Assembly (NCBI GenBank): GCA_947446575.1
Contig: CANFHC010000019.1
Coordinates: forward strand, 1 to 60,214
Reading direction: 5' to 3'
Source: Bacteriovoracaceae bacterium
GTDB taxonomy: Bacteria; Bdellovibrionota; Bacteriovoracia; Bacteriovoracales; Bacteriovoracaceae
DNA length: 60,214 nt
The position numbers and the translations under genes are program-made. Each line of letters begins with the position of its first letter. Positions within the stretch are counted from its first letter, which is position 1. Below the pieces are notes generated by a model that searched no databases, was not told where the DNA came from, and worked only from the letters and a program-made list of their open reading frames with translations. Of this stretch, positions 8,999 through 26,863 are shown one piece after another.

Positions 8999-10231
8999 AT
9001 GATGACTGATTTTAATGAAAAATATGAATTTGAGTTACTTGAGTTTATTCAAAATAATTATGGGATAGAGGTCTTCACTCCTGGGCTTGAAAGGACTAAA
9101 GCCCTCTACCTTCCATTTATAAAGGCGTTTAAAGCAAATGGTGTAAAAGTCACAATTATTGCTGGAACTAATGGAAAAGGTCAGACAGCTTATACGCTTG
9201 CTCACTATTTAGGGACCGCTGGATTTAAAACGGCACTATGGACTTCTCCGCATATATTAAGTTTGAGAGAAAGATTTCAATTTAATAATATAGACGTTTC
9301 TTATGAAGAATTAAGTAATGAAATTTATCTGACACATGAATATATTAAGTCAGATCATATTGGTCTTATTGTATCTTTTTATGAATTTTTATTCTTGGTT
9401 TTTTTAAGACTATCCAACAATAAGGCTCGAGGCTTAAAGCATCTTCTGTTGGAAGTTGGCTTAGGCGGCAAGCTCGATGCAGTTAACCATTTTGATGCTG
9501 ATTGTGCTTGTATCACGTCTATCTCCAGAGACCATCAAGCTATTTTAGGTAATCGTTTTGATCTTATTTTGAAAGAAAAAATAGCAGTAGGGAGAAAAGG
9601 TAAGCCACTTTTTACTCAATTTTCTCTCAATTATTTAAACGAAATGACAAAAAGTTACTGCGATGAACATGGATTTTTATGGAAGAAGTTAGAGGCAAAT
9701 GGAAAGAGCTATTTTCAAGAAAATGAGCAAATGGCCCAATCTCTTTTTCATGAACTCGAGCCCGAGACTTCATTTTCAACATCTCTTAATGTGCCACTGT
9801 TTAAAGGGCGCAGAGAGGAGATGACTTTTAATGGAAATACCCTTATCTTTATAGGAGCACATAATATTGATGGCGTCAGAAAGATGATTGAACTCTTATC
9901 TACTGATACCGGAATTAGTCGACCAACACGTATACTGATTAGTTTTTCGAAACGTCCAGTAAATGAAGTTGAAGTAATGATGAAGTCGATGATTGAATTT
10001 TTTGGAAATGAATCAAAACTTTTACTTTGTAGTTTTGAGCATCCCAAGGCCCTAGACTTAGAATTGATTCAGTTGTTAAAAAATAAAATTAACAAAATTA
10101 ACAAAGGACTGTTAGATTTTGTCACCGATTGGAAAACTGATCTTAAAAATACAAAAAATCAGAAAATTTTGGTCTGCGGCTCCTACTATTTTGTCGGCGA
10201 AGTACAGCGTTTTATCCTTTCTCATTCTTAA
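8999..10231 (+). CDS. folC: Folylpolyglutamate synthase / dihydrofolate synthase family protein
   Basis: A 410-residue Mur-ligase-family enzyme that adds glutamate to folates. The ATP loop GTNGKGQTA lies near residue 56. Then come TSPHILSLRERF, the segment VGLGGKLDAVN with the expected acidic site, and SRDHQAILG (His-Gln in place of the common DH). The second domain has FKGRREEM and DGVRKM in the expected places. An ATG at 9002 is an equal alternative start. The 3' end overlaps the beginning of lptD by about 110 nt if the upstream TTG is used there. Confidence 0.9.
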   Translation: MMTDFNEKYEFELLEFIQNNYGIEVFTPGLERTKALYLPFIKAFKANGVKVTIIAGTNGKGQTAYTLAHYLGTAGFKTALWTSPHILSLRERFQFNNIDVSYEELSNEIYLTHEYIKSDHIGLIVSFYEFLFLVFLRLSNNKARGLKHLLLEVGLGGKLDAVNHFDADCACITSISRDHQAILGNRFDLILKEKIAVGRKGKPLFTQFSLNYLNEMTKSYCDEHGFLWKKLEANGKSYFQENEQMAQSLFHELEPETSFSTSLNVPLFKGRREEMTFNGNTLIFIGAHNIDGVRKMIELLSTDTGISRPTRILISFSKRPVNEVEVMMKSMIEFFGNESKLLLCSFEHPKALDLELIQLLKNKINKINKGLLDFVTDWKTDLKNTKNQKILVCGSYYFVGEVQRFILSHS

Positions 10232-12557
10232 CATCTTACTTATTTCAAGCCTATTTGCCCGAGAAACTTTTGAGTTTAACCTAGGGCAAAAAATTAATAT
10301 TCTCTCTGATAAAGCATTTCGAAAATCTAGTGAAAATGAATTTGAGGCCATTGGAAATGTTGTTATTACTCATATGAAAAATTCGATCTATGGAGAAAAA
10401 GCTCGCATAAATTTTACAACAGGAGACGCAGAGATTACCGGGAATGTGCGATATATTGCACCTGAAATGACTTTGTATGGTACTACACTTAAGTATAATT
10501 TTATCTCGCGTCAAATAGATTTAGATAATGCTCGTGTCCTTTCAGAAAACTTTGTTATTACCGGAAAAAAAATTCTTCAGACAAATCCGGAATTTATTTT
10601 TGCTGAAGAAGCAGAATATACTACTTGTCGAGATTGTCCCGAGTCTTGGAGTGTATTTGGAAAAAATGTTTCAATTGAATTAGGAAAATACGTCAAAATT
10701 AAACATGCCTATATAAAAATAAATGGTGTTGTTGCAATGTATGTTCCATACATTGTTTTTCCCATAAAACAAAAAAGAGAATCTGGATTACTTTTTCCGA
10801 TGATTGGATTTAATTCCAAAGAAGGATTTCGTTATCAACAACCTTTCTTTTGGGCAATAGATGATTTTAAGGATGCGACGATTGTACCATCTACCTTTGG
10901 GAATAGAGGATTGGGAGGAGAGTTACAGTATCGTCAAAATATTAGCGAAAAAACTTGGATGGAAATAAATTCACTACAATTAAATGATAAGATTTATGCT
11001 CCTTATAAAATAAATAAAGATATAAGTGGGAATAGTTATTATCGCCATTTTTCAGATTTAGAATTTCATTCAATTTACAATCATAATATCAACAATCATT
11101 TTTATTTCACCAACACATCGGACTTGGATACAATTAGAGATTTAGATTTTTTTGCAAAAGATAAAACACGTGGAACAGAAGTTGGAGGAGGGGGATTTCT
11201 TGAAGGAAGATTAGAGCATTTCTCCTTAACAGCAGAGAGTTATTTTAATAAAAATATGTTTATTTCTGATCCTAGAGAATTTGATGATAAATATGTTCAA
11301 ATTTTACCAAAAATTTCGATTGCTTCTGTGCCCTATAATATTCTCCATACAAAATATCCTTTTGCAAAAAATATTTCAATTGGATTTAATTCCGATTATA
11401 CAGTTTTTAAACAAAACAAAATGGATACTATCGGGGTGATTCGAAATGCTCGTAGGTTAAATTTAGCACCTTATATGAATTGGCAATTAGGTAATGTTGG
11501 TCCTGTTTTTTTCTCACATCAACTCAAATTAGATTATCAAAATTATTCTTTTCCAACTGAATCAGATAAAAAGTTTACTAAAAAAGGACTTATTTTTGAA
11601 ACTGAAGCAAAATTTGAACTCGAAAGGATCTTTGGACTTGCCTACACTGAAGAGAAACCGAAAGAGCAATTAAAAGACATTAACAAAACAGCAAATCAAA
11701 CTACAATTGGATCTTTGCCGAGCTTACAAAATAATAAAGATGAAATTGTAAAAGTAGTCGTTAATAATAGTTATCGACACTCTCAAGAATATAAAATTAA
11801 ACATTATTATTTATCCGATCAAAAATTTACAGGAAACACAAATTTTAGAAATCAAATAGAATCTGATGATGGACAATTTGACTATGTAGATGCCATAAGG
11901 GCCAAGGAGCATGTTACAAACCAAGTGACCGCCCAAGATTCACTTCCATTAAGTAATACTCTTGAATTTCAGTGGAATAATAAGATAATTAGGAAAAAGT
12001 CTAAAGCGTTTGACCCATATATTGATGGTCGGTATTTAAAAGATAATTTTGAATATAACAACATTGCTTTTTTTGAAGTTTCCCAGGGGCTAGATCTTAA
12101 TATTAAATCAAATGAGCTAGTAAATCGATTGACGCGTTTATATATTAACGCCGGCCTTGAATTGGATAAAACAACATTTAGTGTTCAAGAATTTTACTTC
12201 CACAAAACTTCTGAACACAAATTAACCTCTGCTGCTGCCTATAATTTTGATAGAGCAAGTATAGGAGGGAAATTTACATATAATTCCTTTAATTCATCTA
12301 ATACACCTGTCGCTAAATTGTTAGGCTACAATTTTTCATTACAATTAAGCGATTTGGTAACTTTCAAAAACTCTGCCGATTACAATATGCAAACTAAACT
12401 TTTTGCTCAAAGTAATTATTCATTACTGTATGCTCCATTAAACAATTGTTGGAAAATTGAATTTACGTATGCACGAGATTTAATTGATCAAAAATTTGGC
12501 TTACTTTTTTATATAAACTATAACGAAAATAATTTCGCATCAATCAATGTTAGATAA
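10119..12557 (+). CDS. lptD: LPS-assembly outer membrane protein LptD
   Basis: An 812-residue protein that inserts lipopolysaccharide into the outer leaflet. A hydrophobic signal segment (YSVLSFLILNILLISS) is followed by an OstA-type domain (about residues 55-150) and the long LptD barrel, with the conserved VVAMYVPYIVFPI and GLLFPMIG blocks. A CxxC pair sits in TTCRDCPESW. TTG 10119 has AAAGGA 10 nt upstream; TTG 10191 would give a more typical signal peptide, so the start is open. The gene begins inside folC and overlaps the next gene by 11 nt. Confidence 0.9.
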   Translation: MSPIGKLILKIQKIRKFWSAAPTILSAKYSVLSFLILNILLISSLFARETFEFNLGQKINILSDKAFRKSSENEFEAIGNVVITHMKNSIYGEKARINFTTGDAEITGNVRYIAPEMTLYGTTLKYNFISRQIDLDNARVLSENFVITGKKILQTNPEFIFAEEAEYTTCRDCPESWSVFGKNVSIELGKYVKIKHAYIKINGVVAMYVPYIVFPIKQKRESGLLFPMIGFNSKEGFRYQQPFFWAIDDFKDATIVPSTFGNRGLGGELQYRQNISEKTWMEINSLQLNDKIYAPYKINKDISGNSYYRHFSDLEFHSIYNHNINNHFYFTNTSDLDTIRDLDFFAKDKTRGTEVGGGGFLEGRLEHFSLTAESYFNKNMFISDPREFDDKYVQILPKISIASVPYNILHTKYPFAKNISIGFNSDYTVFKQNKMDTIGVIRNARRLNLAPYMNWQLGNVGPVFFSHQLKLDYQNYSFPTESDKKFTKKGLIFETEAKFELERIFGLAYTEEKPKEQLKDINKTANQTTIGSLPSLQNNKDEIVKVVVNNSYRHSQEYKIKHYYLSDQKFTGNTNFRNQIESDDGQFDYVDAIRAKEHVTNQVTAQDSLPLSNTLEFQWNNKIIRKKSKAFDPYIDGRYLKDNFEYNNIAFFEVSQGLDLNIKSNELVNRLTRLYINAGLELDKTTFSVQEFYFHKTSEHKLTSAAAYNFDRASIGGKFTYNSFNSSNTPVAKLLGYNFSLQLSDLVTFKNSADYNMQTKLFAQSNYSLLYAPLNNCWKIEFTYARDLIDQKFGLLFYINYNENNFASINVR

Positions 12558-19098: not shown

Positions 19099-19722
19099 CT
19101 AATAGAGGATGCTTATTTCCATTTTTAGATCATCTTTTTTACAATTGGGGGCAAGTCTGATAATTTCAAATTTTTTACCATTGGGTTTAAAAATTCCCAT
19201 CTCGGTAACAACTAAATCGACAACATCAAGACCAGTAAAAGGAAGTATGCATTGTGGAAGGAGTTTTGCCATCCCATCTTTAGAGAAATGATTCATCATT
19301 ATAATGACTTGTTTTGATCCGTTGACTAAATCCATTGCACCACCCATTCCAGTAACTTTTTTTCCTGGAACCATCCAGTTTGCTAAATTTCTTTGGGCAT
19401 CAACTTCCATCCCACCTAGAACGCAATAATCAATATGACCACCACGAATCATTCCGAAGCTCATGGAGCTATCAAAGTAACTGGCGCCTTTTTTTATAGC
19501 AATGGTTTCTTTGCCCGCATTGATTAAAGTAGGTGAGACTTCATCTTTTTTGGGTCTGCCACTTACACCAAAGACACCATTTTCAGAATGGATCATAATA
19601 TTAAGATCACTCGGAATGCGTTCAGCAATCACTGTTGGCATGCCAATTCCTAAATTAACAGAAGAGTACGCCTTAAAAAAAGTAATGACTTCATCTGCCA
19701 TTTCAATATTAGTCCAGGCCAT
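19099..19722 (-). CDS. 3-oxoacid CoA-transferase, subunit B
   Basis: A 207-residue subunit of a family I CoA transferase (ScoB/AtoA/PcaJ type). The catalytic Glu lies in the conserved SENGVFG block. The motifs NLGIGMPT, SFGMIRGGHIDYCVLGG and GKKVTGMGGAMDLV are all typical. It moves CoA between succinyl- or acetyl-CoA and a 3-oxo or short-chain acid. It follows subunit A by 2 nt and is the last gene of the six-gene cluster. The natural acid substrate cannot be read from sequence. Confidence 0.92.
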   Translation of the reverse strand: MAWTNIEMADEVITFFKAYSSVNLGIGMPTVIAERIPSDLNIMIHSENGVFGVSGRPKKDEVSPTLINAGKETIAIKKGASYFDSSMSFGMIRGGHIDYCVLGGMEVDAQRNLANWMVPGKKVTGMGGAMDLVNGSKQVIIMMNHFSKDGMAKLLPQCILPFTGLDVVDLVVTEMGIFKPNGKKFEIIRLAPNCKKDDLKMEISILY

Positions 19723-19724
19723 GA

Positions 19725-20426
19725 TTAATTCTCCGTCACTAAAAATTCAATTTCATTTTTATAATTTTTTCCCTGAAAAATTCGCTGAACAAATAAACCT
19801 GGGAGATGAATGTCATGGGGGTCTATTTCACCAACTTCTACTAATTCTTCGACTTCTACAATTGTTGTTTTAGCGGCCATTGCCATCAAGGGAGAAAAAT
19901 TTCGGGCAGTTTCTTTAAACCAAAGATTTCCAAACGTGTCTCCACGTTGAGCTTTTATAATGGCGAAATCAGCGTGGAGAGCTGTTTCCATTATACAAGG
20001 ACGATCAAATGTTTTTACTTCTTTTCCTTCAGCGATCAAAGTTCCATATCCAGTCGGAGTATAGAATGCTCTAATTCCCATTCCTGCCGCGCGAATGCGT
20101 TCTGAGAAAGTTCCTTGAGGAACTAATTCGACCTCTACAGCTTTACTAAGCATGCGAACTTCTAAGTCAGGATTTCCTCCAACATAAGAGCAATAGGCTT
20201 TTTTAATTTTATCTTGGATGAGAATCTTTACAAGTCCACGCCCAGAGTTTCCAATATTATTGGAGATGACTGTCAGGTCAAAAACATCCATTGTTGTAAG
20301 AGCATCAATACAATTCTCAGCAATTCCACACAAACCAAATCCACCACTCATTAGAGTCATTCCGGACTTGAAATCAAATAAAGCAGCATGAGCATCGCTA
20401 AAAACTTTTGGATTATTTTTATTCAT
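19725..20426 (-). CDS. 3-oxoacid CoA-transferase, subunit A
   Basis: A 233-residue subunit of the same CoA transferase (ScoA/AtoD/PcaI type). Family marks are the glycine loop MSGGFGLCGIAE, TVISNNIGNSGRGL, SYVGGNPDLE, VPQGTFSERIRAAGMGI and AFYTPTGYGT, the CoA-binding side. It starts one base inside the stop region of the aminotransferase gene upstream, so aminotransferase, subunit A and subunit B are made together. This pairing suggests a keto or semialdehyde-derived acid as CoA acceptor. Confidence 0.92.
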   Translation of the reverse strand: MNKNNPKVFSDAHAALFDFKSGMTLMSGGFGLCGIAENCIDALTTMDVFDLTVISNNIGNSGRGLVKILIQDKIKKAYCSYVGGNPDLEVRMLSKAVEVELVPQGTFSERIRAAGMGIRAFYTPTGYGTLIAEGKEVKTFDRPCIMETALHADFAIIKAQRGDTFGNLWFKETARNFSPLMAMAAKTTIVEVEELVEVGEIDPHDIHLPGLFVQRIFQGKNYKNEIEFLVTEN

Positions 20427-21610
20427 TATTCATTGTCCTTTATAACTTGTGTGATTTTAGTCATAGCACTTCTTAATAGCTCAGAACTTATAATAAGCGG
20501 CGGGGCGAGTATTATTCGATTAGTCTGTGCCACTAGGTAGAGACCAGCTTTCATAAATTTTTTGGCATCAATACTTTTATGAAGATCTATCGCACAAAGC
20601 ATTCCTTCAACTCTTATTTCTTTAACTAGTTTTATTTTTTTTATTTTTTCTAATTCTTCTTTAAAAATTATTTCAACATGTTTTAGATTTTTTTGAAAAT
20701 TCTGGTCTTGCACAATTTCTAAGACTCCACTCATCGCTGCGATCCCTAATGGGTGTGCATAATTCGTAAGCCCGCAACAAAGAATATTTTCTTCATAATA
20801 GTCGGCAATTTTTTTCGAGGTCCAAACGGCTCCAAATGGAATCATTCCACCTGTTATACCTTTAGCGAGACAAATAATATCAGCATCAACGTTGTAATGC
20901 ATGTATCCGAAGGATTTCCCTGTTCTTTCAAAGCCGCAAACGACTTCGTCCATTATAAGGAAAATTTTAAATTCATCACATAAGGCACGAAGTCCTTTCC
21001 ACCAAGCCTCACTACCAGCATAGACTCCATTGCCGCCCGTAATAGTTTCAATTATGATGGCCGCAATTTTATTTGGATCAGTTTGAAGAATAATTTCTCG
21101 AGTTTTCTCTAGAGCATCAGCTTCAGTTGGTTCTGGTATTCTCACCACCCAACCTTCGGGGGTTAAATGTGCGGGATTTCTCCAGTCTCCTGTAGCGGCA
21201 AGAGCACCAAGGGTCGCGCCGTGGTAGGAGTTTCTTCTTGCAAGTACAATTTTTTTCTTTGTAACATCACGAGCAATTTTCAGCGCATTTTCAATTGTTT
21301 CAGACCCACCTGTCGTATAAAAAATTTTACCGTGTTCTTTTTTCATATAGCGAAGAAGATTATAAGTAGCTTCATTTTTGTGAGGATAGATTCCTTTGGG
21401 TGAACTCATAGGAATTGTATCGAGTTGACCTTTAATATGCTTAATTATGACTGGGTGATTGTGACCGAAATGGGCTTGATAACTTATAGAGGTCATATCA
21501 ATCAATTCATGACCGCCCACGGTTTGGATTTTTACTCCATCAACACTTTCTATTTCAAAAGTTGCAGCAGAGTTCTGTTTACACCAGGAAATATAATAAG
21601 GAAGTGTCAT
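20426..21610 (-). CDS. Class III pyridoxal-phosphate aminotransferase
   Basis: A 394-residue omega-amino acid type aminotransferase. The cofactor Asp lies in MDEVVCGFERTGK and the Schiff-base Lys in CLAKGITGG. The substrate-side segment TTGGSETIENALKIAR and YHGATLGALA are typical. This fold acts on terminal amines such as GABA, beta-alanine, taurine or diamines; the substrate here is unknown. It lies 15 nt after the C45 acyltransferase gene and overlaps subunit A of the CoA transferase by one base. Confidence 0.9.
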   Translation of the reverse strand: MTLPYYISWCKQNSAATFEIESVDGVKIQTVGGHELIDMTSISYQAHFGHNHPVIIKHIKGQLDTIPMSSPKGIYPHKNEATYNLLRYMKKEHGKIFYTTGGSETIENALKIARDVTKKKIVLARRNSYHGATLGALAATGDWRNPAHLTPEGWVVRIPEPTEADALEKTREIILQTDPNKIAAIIIETITGGNGVYAGSEAWWKGLRALCDEFKIFLIMDEVVCGFERTGKSFGYMHYNVDADIICLAKGITGGMIPFGAVWTSKKIADYYEENILCCGLTNYAHPLGIAAMSGVLEIVQDQNFQKNLKHVEIIFKEELEKIKKIKLVKEIRVEGMLCAIDLHKSIDAKKFMKAGLYLVAQTNRIILAPPLIISSELLRSAMTKITQVIKDNE

Positions 21611-21625
21611 ATAATTAATCCAAGT

Positions 21626-22723
21626 TTATTTTATTTTTTTAAAGTCTGTCCCAACGAGTTCGAATTCATATTCCTTATAATCTTGATCGTGGGCAGGACA
21701 TCCTCTCCAGAAAATGTGTTTTCCTCGAATTAAATCGCTCACTCCACCACCACAAGTAAATGATGGATCTTGGGCCCCATTTTCAAAATGAGAACATATC
21801 GATTTAGGAAATTCATCATGATCTGTTAAAAGATTTTTAAAATCTTCAAGGTCTGTAACTTTATATGTTTTTTTCGAAAGGAGATTATACCGATTAAAAG
21901 TAGTGGAACTCATTGAAGACTTATCTTCTATTTTTTGAATCTCACTGCCCATGCAATGATTCGTGTGAAAAATTCCACCAACCTGACCATGTGCTAATGC
22001 AGAAACTTTTTCAGAAACTGAGGGAGTAATTTCTAAATGTTCACCACCTTCGGGTGTACTAATAATATAATTATGTCCAGACGTGACAGGTGCATTTAAA
22101 AGAGTTGAGCGCATTTCACCTAAGTTTCTTCCCTCAAGTGTTTTTCTCACCAGCAGCGGCCAGATTAAACCAGTTTTAGCATTAATGGTGTTAATATTAT
22201 TAACCCCAATTAATCCGTTATATGTATTAACGCCCATTAAACCCACACAACCAACAAGTGTTAAAACAAGTTGGGCCAGATGATCATTTCCTGCTGGAAC
22301 ATGAACAAGACACATATAGTTTTTAGCTGAGCGGTGCATATCCCAAGTTTGGCCAGAAAGAACTTCCGACGGCGTTTGAATATGAACAGTGGAACATCCT
22401 TCTTCTGGTAAAGTGATATCTCTAAAATCGGTATAGTTATTAAGGATAACAAGATCGGTTACAGTAAGGTTAGATCCTTTTGCGATGCCTTCTATTTCAT
22501 CTGTTATATGAGGGGCAAATTTTCTAGAAAATGCTAATTGTTCGAGGGCCAGTTCATCAAGTTTTTTTGCTAATGCTGGATTCTTGGCCAGCATTAAACC
22601 TCTTCTGATGTCAGCTAATTCTTTTATGGCAATTCTAAATTCTTCACCGTGAGAAATTCCCCATTCTGTAGAACTTTTTCCGGATTGATATTTAATATAG
22701 GGAAATTGGCAATTTGTAATCAT
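21626..22723 (-). CDS. C45-family acyltransferase/hydrolase (isopenicillin N acyltransferase-like)
   Basis: A 365-residue N-terminal-nucleophile protein related to acyl-CoA:6-aminopenicillanic acid acyltransferase. The self-processing site is Gly109-Cys110 in PEEGCSTV; Cys110 would become the N-terminal nucleophile after autocleavage. Other family marks are SGQTWDMH, GVNTYNGLIGVNN and FHTNHC. I start at ATG 22723, which overlaps the stop of the fusion gene as ATGA. No signal peptide. Such enzymes transfer acyl groups from CoA or peptides to amines, or cleave amides; substrate unknown. Confidence 0.85.
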   Translation of the reverse strand: MITNCQFPYIKYQSGKSSTEWGISHGEEFRIAIKELADIRRGLMLAKNPALAKKLDELALEQLAFSRKFAPHITDEIEGIAKGSNLTVTDLVILNNYTDFRDITLPEEGCSTVHIQTPSEVLSGQTWDMHRSAKNYMCLVHVPAGNDHLAQLVLTLVGCVGLMGVNTYNGLIGVNNINTINAKTGLIWPLLVRKTLEGRNLGEMRSTLLNAPVTSGHNYIISTPEGGEHLEITPSVSEKVSALAHGQVGGIFHTNHCMGSEIQKIEDKSSMSSTTFNRYNLLSKKTYKVTDLEDFKNLLTDHDEFPKSICSHFENGAQDPSFTCGGGVSDLIRGKHIFWRGCPAHDQDYKEYEFELVGTDFKKIK

Positions 22724-25700
22724 GAGTTTAAATACTCCTTCATCGCATCGTAAGATGGACAAACAACATAGTATTCACCGGTGTGAACAAACATTTTACT
22801 TTTAGAGCTTGGAAGAGATCCTTTAAAATATCCCATTCCATCTTCAATATTAATGCAGTCTATTTCATAGCGAGAGAGGTCGTTTACTAATTTTTCATGA
22901 AAAAGTTTTGTGGTCTTTTTATAATCAGCAAGATTTTTTTGAACACTAGAAAATGCGTGGTGATAAGTGTTAAATGAAAACTCATCTCCGTCCCATGTAC
23001 TAATCATCATAAGTGGCTGCTCTAGATAATAGGCATCACTTGCGAAGGCCATTCCAGCTTGACCGGAAAAATAAATTAGTCCCGCGTCTGGAGCGATATC
23101 AGCAAAACAAGAAGCAAAGAAATTTTTATGAGAAAATCTATAAAATTGAGAAGCTGTTTCATTGTAGACAAGAGCAACTTTATATTTTGTGGCAAGCTCT
23201 CTTAGAGATCGCAAAAACTCATAAGGCATTTTCTCCATTGTTTTTTGCAGGACAGGCTCTACCCAGACAGCAAGATAAGTTCCTTTGGCAAATTCGCTTT
23301 CAACTTCTTTTAAAATTACAGGAAAATTATTTTCATTTGGATTAGAAAGTTTAGTAACTTCAAAATAAGGATCTACCTCAATACTAAGCGAACGAGCAAG
23401 GGCAGAGCCATTGCCAAAAAAATGATTTTTAAAAGTTAACATTCTTGTAATGTGATTATCTTTAATCGAAGCAGGAGATTTAACCCAAATAGTTTTAGCA
23501 ACTTTGTCTACACACTCAGATTGACCTGAACATGTATAACCATGGCGCAATCCGGGAGGCAGAACTTCAATAATTTCTTTCACACCTTTTAAAAAAGTTT
23601 CGCTTACAAAATTTGAAAGGCAAACTTTATTAACTGCGAATGGCATTTGCATATCAAAGTAATCTTTATTTAAACTGCTAAGTGAAAGCGGAATAGTAGT
23701 TGCTCTCCCTAAATGCAGAGCGGGTTTTTTCCATTCGGCTTTAGTTGTGTAGTAAAGAACGTCTCTATAAGTTTCAAAATCAGGATAATCTTCTCGAATA
23801 TAGCTTTGTTCAATTGCTCCAAGAGACATATTGATATTAATCATAGCACTAGCAAGACGATCGCGATTGCGACCTTGTATGCGTTTAACTCCCTTGGTAA
23901 GGGCCATAGCTGAAAGAGCATATTTAAGTGATCTGCCTAGACCTGTTCCTTGAAGAGATGTATCAACAGTTACATCTAACATATAAAGAGAATCCTCTTC
24001 TTCAAAGTTAGGATCCATGCGCACACCGCGCTCTAGCGGATAAAGTTTCAATGGGCCAGCAAAAGCAATTCCAACTAGTTTTTTATCGCTTTTATTTACA
24101 ATTCCCAAACAAAGTGAATTTTTATTTAAAACAGTGTGCTCAAATTTTTCGATATCAGTTTGTCTTGCTGGTTCGTAAACTTTTTTCTCTAAGTTAATTA
24201 TTTCCTGTCTGTAATTTAAAAAATTATCAGCAGAAATTTCTATCAGATTAACGTCTGATTTTTCAGTCATTAATTTTTCTATTCGATCGAAAACACTTTT
24301 TGTATTTATTTTTTTACCTAAAACTTTTTCAAGCTTAGTTGTTATTAATAAATCGTGCCATTCATAACTTTCACGAGCTTCAATGGCATCTGTATCGAAA
24401 TGCGTAGGCAATGGATGAACTTCATTTAGAAAAAGTTCTCGGCAAATATAGTCGAGTCGATCGAATAAAAAATCTAAGTCTTTTTCTCCAAAAGCAGTAT
24501 TCAATCTAAAACGGAGAGTTTGTGATCCCGCTGGGTAATAGAGAAGGCCGTGTTTAAAACGAAGATCAACAAATTTATTAAGTAGAGCAGGATCGTGAAT
24601 ATCAAAAGCGAATGCTAGTCCATTTATTCTAGGACGAGAGACAAACTGTGAGTGCTTTTTCAAAAGAGCTTTCATGCGAGGAGCGACTAATTTTTCCATC
24701 TCCCAAATTCGAGCTTGGCATTGGTCGAGACTAATAGCATGAGCATAACCTCTAAGAGCTGAGGCCACTGAATACTCTTCACCTTTAAATATATTTTTAG
24801 TTTCGTGATGACTTAGAACAATTCCAATCTGTGCTTTTTTCGCGCAAATAACATAATCAGGATTTAGTTGCTCACCGTGGAGTCCGCGAAGGTTAAATTG
24901 GCGATGCCAAAAAAATTCTTTACCTAGATGAAAGCCAGTTTGAACTTCATCATGAATGACAGGGATTTTAAAAGTTTTTGCCATTAAGATTAAAGCGGTG
25001 TGAAAGCGATCAGAAGAATAACAATCACCACCTTCACATTGCATAGGCTCTATTAATATAGCAAAAAGTTTTTTTGATAATAGTTGCGTGCGAACAGCTA
25101 GAAGCGAATCTACTTCTTTTTTAACCATTTCATCACTTAGCCATTCACTTGGCACTGTAAAATCTTTTAAAGATGCTTCATTCCAAGTCTCACGCCATTT
25201 AGCGGGCATCGTAACATTAATATTTCCATCATTGAGTTCAGGATATTTAACATACTCCGCCAAATAGTTTTTCCACTCAAAAGGTTCACGTTTTGATTTA
25301 TTCCACGTCGCCGCAAGAGTGATCATCATCCGTCCATGAAATGATCCTTCAAACGCTAAAACTTTGTTAGCGTCTTTATTTACTCTCTTATTATAACAAT
25401 AACCTAAAGCAGTTTCATTAGCCTCAGCTCCTGAATGAACAAAAGTTAATGAAGTTTTTTTCCAATTTAATTTTCTGCTGAGAAAATTTTGAAATGCTTG
25501 GCGCATATCTTTAAATTCTTTGGTCGTGTAATCATTCATCCAAGTTTCAAGAAACTCAGTTGTTCCAAAAAAGATAGATGGATTAAAGCCGTGTCCTAAT
25601 GTTGCAATTTGAGAAGCTGCATCCATTAAATAGTGAGTACTACCATCATGAGCTTCTATACCCATATAAGGACCAATTGAGTCCTTGAGTTTGGTCATAT

Positions 25701-25800
25701 AAGTTTTTTTCTCCGCCGGAATCATTTTATTGGCATAATAATGCTTTAAAATTTCTGAGCCATGATTTGCGTCGTCAGCATTTATAATAGGTAATTTCAT
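22720..25800 (-). CDS. Fusion: lysine 6-aminotransferase-like domain, GNAT domain, degenerate aminotransferase domain
   Basis: A 1026-residue three-part enzyme. Residues 1-465 form a class III aminotransferase with HDEVQTGF (283-290) and the Schiff-base Lys in CAKKAQ (321-322), a pattern close to L-lysine epsilon-aminotransferases. Residues 517-690 are a GNAT acyltransferase with the acyl-CoA loop QGTGLGRS (617-624). Residues 720-1026 repeat the aminotransferase C-terminal fold, but YNETASQF (879-886) replaces HDEVQTGF and SGQAG replaces the Lys segment, so it cannot bind PLP normally. The gene is ATGA-coupled to the C45 gene. I know no characterised protein with this layout. Confidence 0.85.
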   Translation of the reverse strand: MKLPIINADDANHGSEILKHYYANKMIPAEKKTYMTKLKDSIGPYMGIEAHDGSTHYLMDAASQIATLGHGFNPSIFFGTTEFLETWMNDYTTKEFKDMRQAFQNFLSRKLNWKKTSLTFVHSGAEANETALGYCYNKRVNKDANKVLAFEGSFHGRMMITLAATWNKSKREPFEWKNYLAEYVKYPELNDGNINVTMPAKWRETWNEASLKDFTVPSEWLSDEMVKKEVDSLLAVRTQLLSKKLFAILIEPMQCEGGDCYSSDRFHTALILMAKTFKIPVIHDEVQTGFHLGKEFFWHRQFNLRGLHGEQLNPDYVICAKKAQIGIVLSHHETKNIFKGEEYSVASALRGYAHAISLDQCQARIWEMEKLVAPRMKALLKKHSQFVSRPRINGLAFAFDIHDPALLNKFVDLRFKHGLLYYPAGSQTLRFRLNTAFGEKDLDFLFDRLDYICRELFLNEVHPLPTHFDTDAIEARESYEWHDLLITTKLEKVLGKKINTKSVFDRIEKLMTEKSDVNLIEISADNFLNYRQEIINLEKKVYEPARQTDIEKFEHTVLNKNSLCLGIVNKSDKKLVGIAFAGPLKLYPLERGVRMDPNFEEEDSLYMLDVTVDTSLQGTGLGRSLKYALSAMALTKGVKRIQGRNRDRLASAMININMSLGAIEQSYIREDYPDFETYRDVLYYTTKAEWKKPALHLGRATTIPLSLSSLNKDYFDMQMPFAVNKVCLSNFVSETFLKGVKEIIEVLPPGLRHGYTCSGQSECVDKVAKTIWVKSPASIKDNHITRMLTFKNHFFGNGSALARSLSIEVDPYFEVTKLSNPNENNFPVILKEVESEFAKGTYLAVWVEPVLQKTMEKMPYEFLRSLRELATKYKVALVYNETASQFYRFSHKNFFASCFADIAPDAGLIYFSGQAGMAFASDAYYLEQPLMMISTWDGDEFSFNTYHHAFSSVQKNLADYKKTTKLFHEKLVNDLSRYEIDCINIEDGMGYFKGSLPSSKSKMFVHTGEYYVVCPSYDAMKEYLNS

Positions 25801-25818: not shown

Positions 25819-26814
25819 TTACAAAATATTTTTAGCAATAATATCTTTAAAAAATTTCTTAAAAGAATGTCCGTTATTTTCCATCATCTTAGGAAACATT
25901 GATATTGGAGTCATTCCTGGAAATGTATTGATTTCATTTAAGAATATTTCACCTTCATCAGTATAGAAAAAATCTATACGAGAGAGGTGACGAAGTTTTA
26001 AATGACTAAATGCTTTGATGGCATATGCACGCATTTTTTCAATCGCTTCTTTTGGTAATTCTGGGGCCACAATTTCAGTGGTTGTTTTACTATTCGGATT
26101 GTATTTTTCTTCGTAAGAATAAAATTTACTTGGACAATGAATTTCCCCGGGAACGGTCGCAATAATTGCTCCATCATATTCGTAAGTAGAAATTTCTAAC
26201 TCGCGGGCATTAACCATTTTTTCAACGAGAACATAACTTGAGTATTGGAATGCATTTATTAATGCTTGATCTAATTCTGCTTTAGTAAAAACTTGATAGC
26301 AACCAACACTTGATCCTTGTGAAGCGGCTTTTACAAAAATTTTTCCATAACGATCAAATAAATCATAAGCGCGCTTTTTATCTTCCATATCGGTTAAAAA
26401 TTCAAAAGGAGTATTGGGAATTTCCAGAGCATTAAACCACAATTTACTAGTCACTTTATTGAAGCTATTCAAACTGGCTTCTGGTCCACAACCAACATAG
26501 GGAAGATTGGTGAGTTCAAAAAATGTTTGAATTTCACCTGTTTCACCCGGAGGACCATGAATGCAAGGAACAGCGATATGAATATCGATAGTTTTCAAAC
26601 CAACAAGCTGTCGATTGAAATTTAAAGTTACAACATCGCCATATGAATCATCAGCATTTACAACTCGAAAAACTTTGTCTTTGCAGATTTCAACTTTTAT
26701 AACGTTATAAAGGCCAATATCAATTAAATTTTGCTGGATAAACTTAGAAGAAACAAGCGAGACTTCGTGTTCAGTGCCGCCGCCTCCGCAGAGGAGTAGA
26801 ATATTTTTTTTCAT
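25819..26814 (-). CDS. D-alanine-D-alanine ligase family ATP-grasp enzyme
   Basis: A 331-residue ATP-grasp ligase. GGGGTEHEVSLVS at the N-terminus matches the GGxSxEHxVS motif of Ddl. IHGPPGETGEIQ, FVKAASQGSSVGCYQV, ELEISTYEYDG, VPGEI and the metal site FFYTDEGEIFLNEINTFPGMT are all present. It could be the housekeeping Ddl for cell wall synthesis or a dedicated dipeptide ligase, since it heads the unusual six-gene cluster with 18 nt to the fusion gene. No mur gene is adjacent; murI lies 24 kb away. Confidence 0.88.
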   Translation of the reverse strand: MKKNILLLCGGGGTEHEVSLVSSKFIQQNLIDIGLYNVIKVEICKDKVFRVVNADDSYGDVVTLNFNRQLVGLKTIDIHIAVPCIHGPPGETGEIQTFFELTNLPYVGCGPEASLNSFNKVTSKLWFNALEIPNTPFEFLTDMEDKKRAYDLFDRYGKIFVKAASQGSSVGCYQVFTKAELDQALINAFQYSSYVLVEKMVNARELEISTYEYDGAIIATVPGEIHCPSKFYSYEEKYNPNSKTTTEIVAPELPKEAIEKMRAYAIKAFSHLKLRHLSRIDFFYTDEGEIFLNEINTFPGMTPISMFPKMMENNGHSFKKFFKDIIAKNIL

Positions 26815-26830: not shown

Positions 26831-26863
26831 AGGGAAAAAGAAGGGCAATCATTCGCCCTTCTT
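26831..26863 (-). terminator. Intrinsic terminator between thrS and the ddl-like gene
   Basis: AAGAAGGGC (26838-26846) pairs with GCCCTTCTT (26855-26863); on the minus strand the stem is followed by a run of T. It lies 17-24 nt before the ddl-like start codon, leaving no room for a promoter after it. Confidence 0.85.

Follow-up and report, generated by a model that had tools for sequence, protein, structure and literature searches.

The open reading frame at 22720-25800, on the minus strand of the window (the whole 60,214-nucleotide stretch of DNA analysed here), encodes a 1026-residue fusion protein, referred to here as FUS. We propose, with a probability of about 0.64, that FUS is a bifunctional β-lysine N6-acetyltransferase/N6-acetyl-β-lysine transaminase of lysine catabolism, in which a dead C-terminal aminotransferase half completes the active site of a live N-terminal half in cis.

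Three domains in one chain

22720-25800, minus strand: FUS fusion protein, 1026 residues; ATG start, TGA stop, homologues in other genomes
24406-25800, minus strand: N domain, residues 1-465, GABA aminotransferase/LAT-type catalytic class III aminotransferase; Pfam, structure and profile matches
23701-24405, minus strand: GNAT acetyltransferase, residues 466-700, core about 517-690; Pfam Acetyltransf_1
22723-23700, minus strand: dead class III aminotransferase fold, residues 701-1026; NCBIfam, profile-profile and PDB profile matches, predicted fold
22984-23001, minus strand: S934-T935-W936-D937-G938-D939 (STWDGD), C-half counterpart of the STWGGN/NTWLGD motif that reaches the partner subunit; no variation among the 37 homologues

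The three-domain architecture, first claimed from the sequence of this window, is well supported by profile matches and the predicted fold (full-chain AF2 model, pLDDT 92.2, pTM 0.92). The same architecture was found in dozens of other genomes, full length and free of stops, which rules out an assembly or frame artefact joining separate genes. The motifs singled out in the first-pass annotation lie in the domains assigned to them: the N domain contains HDEVQTGF (283-290) and CAKKAQ (319-324), the C domain YNETASQF (879-886) and FSGQAG (911-916).

The N domain combines a DE(V/I/L)..G motif, a Schiff-base lysine and the large domain of fold-type I, as in class III aminotransferases. Pfam Aminotran_3 (PF00202) matches residues 51-450 (2.2e-34; 119 bits against a cut-off of 30.5), and the LAT-type profile matches at E 6e-33. 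Structure comparison with LAT 2jje aligned 399 residues (Z 33.2, rmsd 2.5), and Z is about 33 both to LAT and to acetylornithine aminotransferase. D284, K321, R157, E251, E256, Q287 and R430/R432 are invariant among the aligned homologues, and K322 is likewise invariant, beside D284 and K321, in all 37; by alignment, K321 is the predicted Schiff-base lysine. The N half thus shares its fold, PLP site, Glu switch and carboxylate-binding arginine with LAT (Rv3290c) and GABA aminotransferase. Against the L-lysine 6-transaminase model TIGR03251, FUS scores 76.8 bits, short of the 520.8 set as the cut-off for this NCBIfam equivalog.

The middle segment belongs to the GNAT superfamily by profile and by its Q/R-x-x-G-x-G/A loop. 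Scanned alone, it matches Pfam Acetyltransf_1 over residues 540-641 (7.6e-5; 23.4 bits against a cut-off of 20.7), and the acetyl-CoA loop, Q-G-T-G-L-G, spans residues 617-622. Eight residues (Y542, R546, Y606, D609, G622, K626, N645 and N657) are invariant in the 37 homologues, with G620 present in 34. Its solved-structure relatives gave weak matches only (E 0.096 or worse). The segment does not match the AblB model TIGR03827 up to an E of 10, and the whole genome contains no match to that model at E 0.1.

The C domain lacks the first ~63 residues of the fold, the Schiff-base lysine and the PLP aspartate. NCBIfam bioA nevertheless matches the C-terminal third (3.6e-7), a PDB profile search with that third recovered an aminotransferase at 6.3e-9, and profile-profile alignment relates the C half to the N half (E 1.4e-9) and to LAT-type enzymes (E 5e-10). 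Its predicted fold is LAT-like, with 319 of 326 residues aligned to M. tuberculosis LAT 2cin (Z 27.7, rmsd 3.2). Since profiles and predicted fold agree, the objection that the C-terminal third might be an unrelated fold fails. The suggestion that this second aminotransferase is dead holds across the family of homologues, none of the 37 having a lysine at 911/912 or an aspartate at 880. Judged by its sequence, the C domain is related to class III enzymes in fold and ancestry but is not an active one. In a tree, the N halves form one group and the C halves another.

A PLP site probably divided between live and dead halves

In M. tuberculosis LAT, nine residues of the PLP site (Gly128, Ala129, Phe167, His168, Glu238, Asp271, Val273, Gln274 and Lys300) come from one subunit, whereas Ser329 and Thr330 come from the other (PMC9780415). 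Profile alignment places the equivalents of all nine in the N half of FUS (G124, A125, F154, H155, E251, D284, V286, Q287 and K321), and all are invariant. The counterparts of Ser329 and Thr330 instead lie in the C half, as S934 and T935, and are invariant in 37 of 37 homologues. At the corresponding place the N half has G351 and Y352, within R350-G351-Y352, so the Ser-Thr pair has been lost there, and R350-G351 is invariant in the N domain. Whereas in class III homodimers the Ser/Thr of the T-x-x-G-(N/D) motif lies in the same half as the catalytic lysine, in FUS it lies in the other. LAT and GABA aminotransferase are two-site homodimers; a FUS chain, in contrast, pairs a live half with a dead one, divides the residues between the two and carries the GNAT domain in the middle, and it is the dead half that retains the STWGGN/NTWLGD motif. 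The chain stops soon after the STWDGD motif in three homologues (L040, L041 and L071), which belong to two other families. In the full-chain AF2 model, confidence is below average at the loop carrying the motif (block mean 68).

It had been proposed that the active site could be completed by a fused pseudo-subunit, inside a single chain. This idea gains strength from the Ser-Thr pair, which does not vary in the dead half and which the live half has lost; the dead half appears, from this residue pattern, to supply what the live half is missing, probably in cis. Each chain would then hold a single PLP site, with Lys321, Asp284 and the carboxylate-binding Arg157 contributed by the N domain. The C domain would stand in for the second subunit of an obligate class III dimer and bring Ser934-Thr935 to the phosphate side of PLP. 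The site could also be completed between two FUS chains rather than within one.

Among fold-type I PLP enzymes, a dead half or subunit completes the live part in the glycine decarboxylase P-protein and in serine palmitoyltransferase (LCB1/LCB2). These differ from FUS in family, and no acetyltransferase lies between their halves. If the proposed arrangement is correct, FUS would be a clean natural example of a single chain that distributes the two sets of class III dimer residues over its halves, one live and the other dead.

The dead site has conserved residues of its own (S758, G759, E762, K766, F795, G796, E881 and Q914), which suggests that it has some ligand or role. They would fit a C domain reduced to a structural or regulatory relic, with the N domains of two chains forming an ordinary homodimer and the β-lysine pathway described below still being right. 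We consider this unlikely, as an N-N dimer would need the Ser-Thr pair where the N half has G351-Y352, and it is the C half that keeps this motif without variation. A tentative elaboration is possible, though not our favored expectation: in an internal half-dead dimer with the GNAT domain between its halves, acetylated β-lysine would pass from the GNAT domain to the one live PLP site, while the dead pocket, facing R350-G351, would bind a second, regulatory ligand. Such an arrangement would assign genes to the acetyl-β-lysine transaminase and deacetylase activities.

Operon genes and the proposed β-lysine pathway

FUS lies in an apparent operon with the following genes.

25819-26814, minus strand: D-Ala-D-Ala ligase (Ddl), first gene of the apparent operon; sole strong Ddl in the genome
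21626-22723, minus strand: C45-family autoproteolytic acyltransferase/hydrolase, proposed acetamido deacetylase; NF040521, 7.4e-40
20426-21610, minus strand: second class III aminotransferase, a stand-alone protein proposed to act as GABA transaminase; Pfam 3.3e-77, position conserved in the family
19725-20426, minus strand: 3-oxoacid CoA-transferase subunit A; TIGR02429, 1.5e-71, above cut-off
19099-19722, minus strand: 3-oxoacid CoA-transferase subunit B; TIGR02428, 1.9e-75, above cut-off

The gene order is kept across the Bacteriovoracaceae, and the CoA-transferase genes are again found beside FUS in another family. The C45 gene adjoins FUS in all four families. We moved its start from TTG 22762 to ATG 22723, where it overlaps the FUS stop (ATGA); its nucleophile, G122-C123 (numbered from the TTG start), is invariant. 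Upstream of the ligase gene is a terminator-like hairpin (26863-26838), and a promoter scan of the region returned fewer sites than in shuffles. We rejected Ddl as a pathway enzyme and treat it as probably housekeeping, because the genome has no other strong Ddl and the gene does not adjoin FUS in other families.

The N6-acetyl-β-lysine route of lysine degradation is known from Pseudomonas enzymology of the 1970s-80s. It comprises a β-lysine acetyltransferase, N6-acetyl-β-lysine transaminase (EC 2.6.1.65), CoA transfer, a thiolase and 4-acetamidobutyryl-CoA deacetylase. We know of no genes assigned to the transaminase or the deacetylase, and a literature search on Bdellovibrio lysine aminotransferase, acetyl-β-lysine transaminase and 4-acetamidobutyryl-CoA deacetylase returned nothing relevant.

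The operon likely encodes this pathway, with substrates, step order and the role of the C45 enzyme assigned by inference. Lysine 2,3-aminomutase (KamA), encoded elsewhere, would convert lysine to β-lysine, whose 6-amino group the GNAT domain would acetylate. The N-terminal aminotransferase would then move the 3-amino group onto 2-oxoglutarate, and the resulting 3-oxo-6-acetamidohexanoate would be activated by the operon's CoA-transferase and cleaved by a thiolase, for which the genome has five strong loci, to acetyl-CoA and 4-acetamidobutyryl-CoA. Finally, the C45 hydrolase, proposed by analogy as an acetamidobutyrate deacetylase, would release GABA for transamination by the second aminotransferase.

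The predicted functions of the operon provide the CoA-transferase, amide hydrolase and second transaminase. As in Pseudomonas, there are an acetyltransferase, two transaminases, a CoA-transferase, an amide hydrolase and, earlier in the route, an aminomutase; the differences are that two steps are fused in FUS and that its substrates are predicted. That FUS physically links deamination and N-acylation, as envisaged in the first-pass annotation, is plausible. If the assignment is correct, it would provide sequences for lysine-breakdown activities known, as far as we are aware, only from classical enzymology.

Distribution and alternative functions

FUS occurs in 58 of 129 Bacteriovoracaceae genomes and in four genomes of three other families. 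A KamA-type enzyme is found in 65 of the 129, including 52 of the 58 with FUS (Fisher p 6e-17, although the genomes are not phylogenetically independent). The six family genomes with FUS and no KamA are all <90% complete, and every family FUS genome that is at least 90% complete has KamA; in one FUS genome outside the family (G078, 90% complete) no KamA was seen. Lysine 5,6-aminomutase is present in 10 family genomes, every one of which has KamA and lacks FUS. The KamA of the present genome scores 281 bits, under the NCBIfam equivalog cut-off of 525; its gene is unlinked to the FUS operon, and no conserved neighbors of KamA were seen in FUS genomes. A plasmid search with the GNAT and C domains gave no match, and one pattern-based scan beyond the phylum returned close relatives only. 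The host itself is a relative of predatory bacteria.

Clostridial and fusobacterial lysine fermentation (KamA, KamDE, KDD, Kce, Kal or Kat) also begins with lysine 2,3-aminomutase. It proceeds, however, through β-lysine 5,6-aminomutase, which is absent from all family FUS genomes. Relatives that lack FUS carry fermentation genes and share the KamA subfamily of the FUS genomes; in one of them, this KamA sits with KDD, KamB, KamC, KamD and KamE. If our reading is correct, Bacteriovoracaceae choose between two β-lysine routes, FUS or lysine 5,6-aminomutase.

These patterns bear on the original suggestion that FUS is a LAT-like lysine 6-aminotransferase acting on lysine (or ornithine), whose GNAT domain acetylates lysine or its product. 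The best solved-structure alignments of the N domain are indeed to LAT and to acetylornithine and GABA aminotransferases, and it keeps the equivalents of LAT Arg170, Glu243 and Arg422; these residues, however, are common to GABA aminotransferase-type enzymes and do not select for lysine. Moreover, this suggestion would not account for KamA co-occurrence, for exclusion of the 5,6-aminomutase or for the presence of a CoA-transferase and a second aminotransferase. We therefore regard this suggestion as improbable: co-occurrence, exclusion, the CoA-transferase and the C45 hydrolase argue that the substrate is probably not lysine and point to β-lysine, acetylated and then transaminated.

A different route from β-lysine or a related diamino acid, with another acyl group or step order (e.g., the stand-alone transaminase acting first), is less probable still. 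The FUS substrates are predicted and C45 enzymes accept a wide range of acyl amides, but the operon content fits the N6-acetyl-β-lysine steps one for one.

Very unlikely is a role in making N6-acetyl-β-lysine as an osmolyte, without lysine breakdown, as in KamA/AblB synthesis: there, too, an aminomutase precedes a GNAT on β-lysine (predicted for FUS), KamA co-occurs and the FUS GNAT could substitute for AblB, but that domain has no AblB match, is joined to an active aminotransferase and has catabolic neighbors (CoA-transferase, hydrolase and second aminotransferase) that would destroy the product, and FUS-less relatives have lysine-fermentation genes instead.

Domain architecture and predicted fold of FUS

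22720-25800, minus strand: open reading frame of the fusion protein FUS (1026 residues, ATG start, TGA stop)

The first-pass annotation described three domains, and this observation is borne out by profile matches and the predicted fold. Pfam places Aminotran_3 at residues 51-450 (2.2e-34) and GNAT at residues 540-641, the latter with 23.4 bits against a cut-off of 20.7 when the segment is scanned alone. The last third has no Pfam family above cut-off; it matches class III aminotransferases in NCBIfam (bioA, 3.6e-7) and, in profile comparisons, both the N half of FUS (E 1.4e-9) and LAT-type enzymes of related genomes (E 5e-10), LAT being the lysine aminotransferase of M. tuberculosis.

The full-chain model has a mean pLDDT of 92.2 and a pTM of 0.92. 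Its N domain aligns to LAT (2jje) over 399 residues (Z 33.2, rmsd 2.5). Predicted alone (pLDDT 91.2), the C domain aligns with LAT residues 64-436 (2cin) over 319 of its 326 residues (Z 27.7, rmsd 3.2); the model shows a class III fold that lacks its first ~63 residues.

Another class III aminotransferase of this genome (contig C14, 18498-19649) lies within a 2193-residue open frame that also has a weak thiolase-family match, a combination suggesting that the frame is perhaps a polyketide-synthase or NRPS fusion.

Active-site residues of the live and dead halves

In LAT, one subunit supplies Gly128, Ala129, Phe167, His168, Glu238, Asp271, Val273, Gln274 and Lys300 to the PLP site, and the other supplies Ser329 and Thr330 (PMC9780415). 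By profile alignment, the first of these sets corresponds to G124, A125, F154, H155, E251, D284, V286, Q287 and K321 of FUS, while R157, E256 and R430/R432 match the substrate-binding residues of LAT; none of these positions varies among the N halves. Ser329-Thr330 of LAT, contributed by the other subunit, aligns with S934-T935 of the C half, which is invariant in 37/37 homologues; the N-half counterpart is G351-Y352. In the C half, position 911 is F, L, M or others but never Lys among the 37 homologues, position 912 is S, G or A, and position 880 has N, H or G replacing Asp. Because the Lys and Asp lie in the N half and the Ser-Thr pair in the C half, the alignment points to a single live site per chain, which could be built only from these two contributions. 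The proposal of a fused pseudo-subunit is thereby supported and sharpened, the contact between the halves being a proposed one; apart from that contact, the architecture is well supported. Three homologues, which belong to two other families, have chains that stop soon after STWDGD, which means that conservation within the dead half extends no further than the Ser-Thr contribution.

The dead site, though devoid of Lys and Asp, retains an invariant S758, G759, E762, K766, F795, G796 and E881 and, mostly, Q914, residues that may hold a ligand there. R350-G351 is kept in the N domain where the facing of the dead C-domain site (22723-23700, residues 701-1026) is expected, and the two together are a possible second ligand site.

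Distribution and gene neighborhood

FUS is present in 58 of the 129 family genomes (20 of 48 genera) and in four genomes from three other families of the same phylum; the named contigs carrying it are Bacteriovorax and Bacteriovoracaceae. In the tree, the N halves form one group and the C halves another, and their main splits match, as expected from one old fusion. FUS is a real, old protein. In one genus (g13, including 9043-11901 of locus L051 in genome G025) the C domain is shortened, giving ~950-980 residues in total, and the pseudo-subunit is more diverged.

The order Ddl-FUS-C45-aminotransferase-CoA-transferase A-B, where Ddl is a D-Ala-D-Ala ligase and C45 an autoproteolytic acyltransferase/hydrolase, is conserved family-wide wherever contigs allow, with Ddl absent beside FUS in one family genome. 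In the window, Ddl and FUS are separated by 18 bases and FUS and C45 overlap by ATGA. C45 also directly follows FUS in three other families, in one of which (L040) both CoA-transferase subunit genes adjoin FUS on the opposite strand. C45 has Gly122-Cys123 in 25/25 sequences (residue numbers count from the TTG start as listed), and inspection by eye revealed no signal peptide.

26838-26863, minus strand: strong terminator-like hairpin between ThrS and Ddl

By its position, this hairpin puts Ddl at the head of the FUS operon, even though Ddl looks like the housekeeping D-Ala-D-Ala ligase; it is the only strong Ddl in the genome.

Lysine aminomutases and the proposed substrate

The N6-acetyl-beta-lysine route of lysine breakdown, described in Pseudomonas in the 1970s-80s, comprises an aminomutase, an acetyltransferase, two different transaminases, a 3-oxoacid CoA-transferase, an amide hydrolase and a thiolase. 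Genes that would cover the same step list are present here, with five strong thiolase loci in the genome. Since the gene set corresponds to these steps, we read FUS as a beta-lysine N6-acetyltransferase and N6-acetyl-beta-lysine:2-oxoglutarate transaminase with a dead subunit built in, the substrate being inferred from context. This reading offers a testable gene assignment. Enzymes deaminating beta-lysine, meaning by direct deamination, have been stated as not known (PMC7241714).

A FUS that acts on beta-lysine would require lysine 2,3-aminomutase (KamA) in the same genome, counted here as a subfamily (ORF length 420-498 aa, TIGR03820 scores of 264-300 bits) or canonical KamA. KamA occurs in 65 family genomes, 52 of which also have FUS (Fisher p 6e-17, uncorrected for phylogeny). 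The six family genomes with FUS and no KamA have a completeness of 68-88%. Of the 13 with KamA and no FUS, lysine 5,6-aminomutase is present in ten, and completeness is 56-85% in the remaining three; FUS and lysine 5,6-aminomutase never share a family genome. This co-occurrence and exclusion, together with the operon content, point away from lysine itself, so the substrate first proposed is probably wrong. The KamA of the window's genome retains both Asp residues that mark lysine specificity (in HDM and CDAPGGGG).

Outside the family, KamA is found in three of the four FUS genomes. In the fourth (G078, 90% complete), which has the FUS-C45 pair, none was detectable, reflecting either an assembly gap or another substrate source.

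The FUS-less genome G037 has the same KamA subfamily alongside KDD, KamB, KamC, KamD and KamE, a gene set known from lysine fermentation (PMC3149608). There (contig C11, 6150-15397), KamA is divergent from KDD-KamB-KamC-KamD-KamE, after which a HemL-like class III aminotransferase comes next, and the cluster resembles the lysine fermentation clusters of Cloacamonas and Fusobacterium. A second, shorter KamA-family protein of the window's genome (~347 aa; contig C17, 28008-28922) is probably the EF-P lysylation enzyme EpmB.
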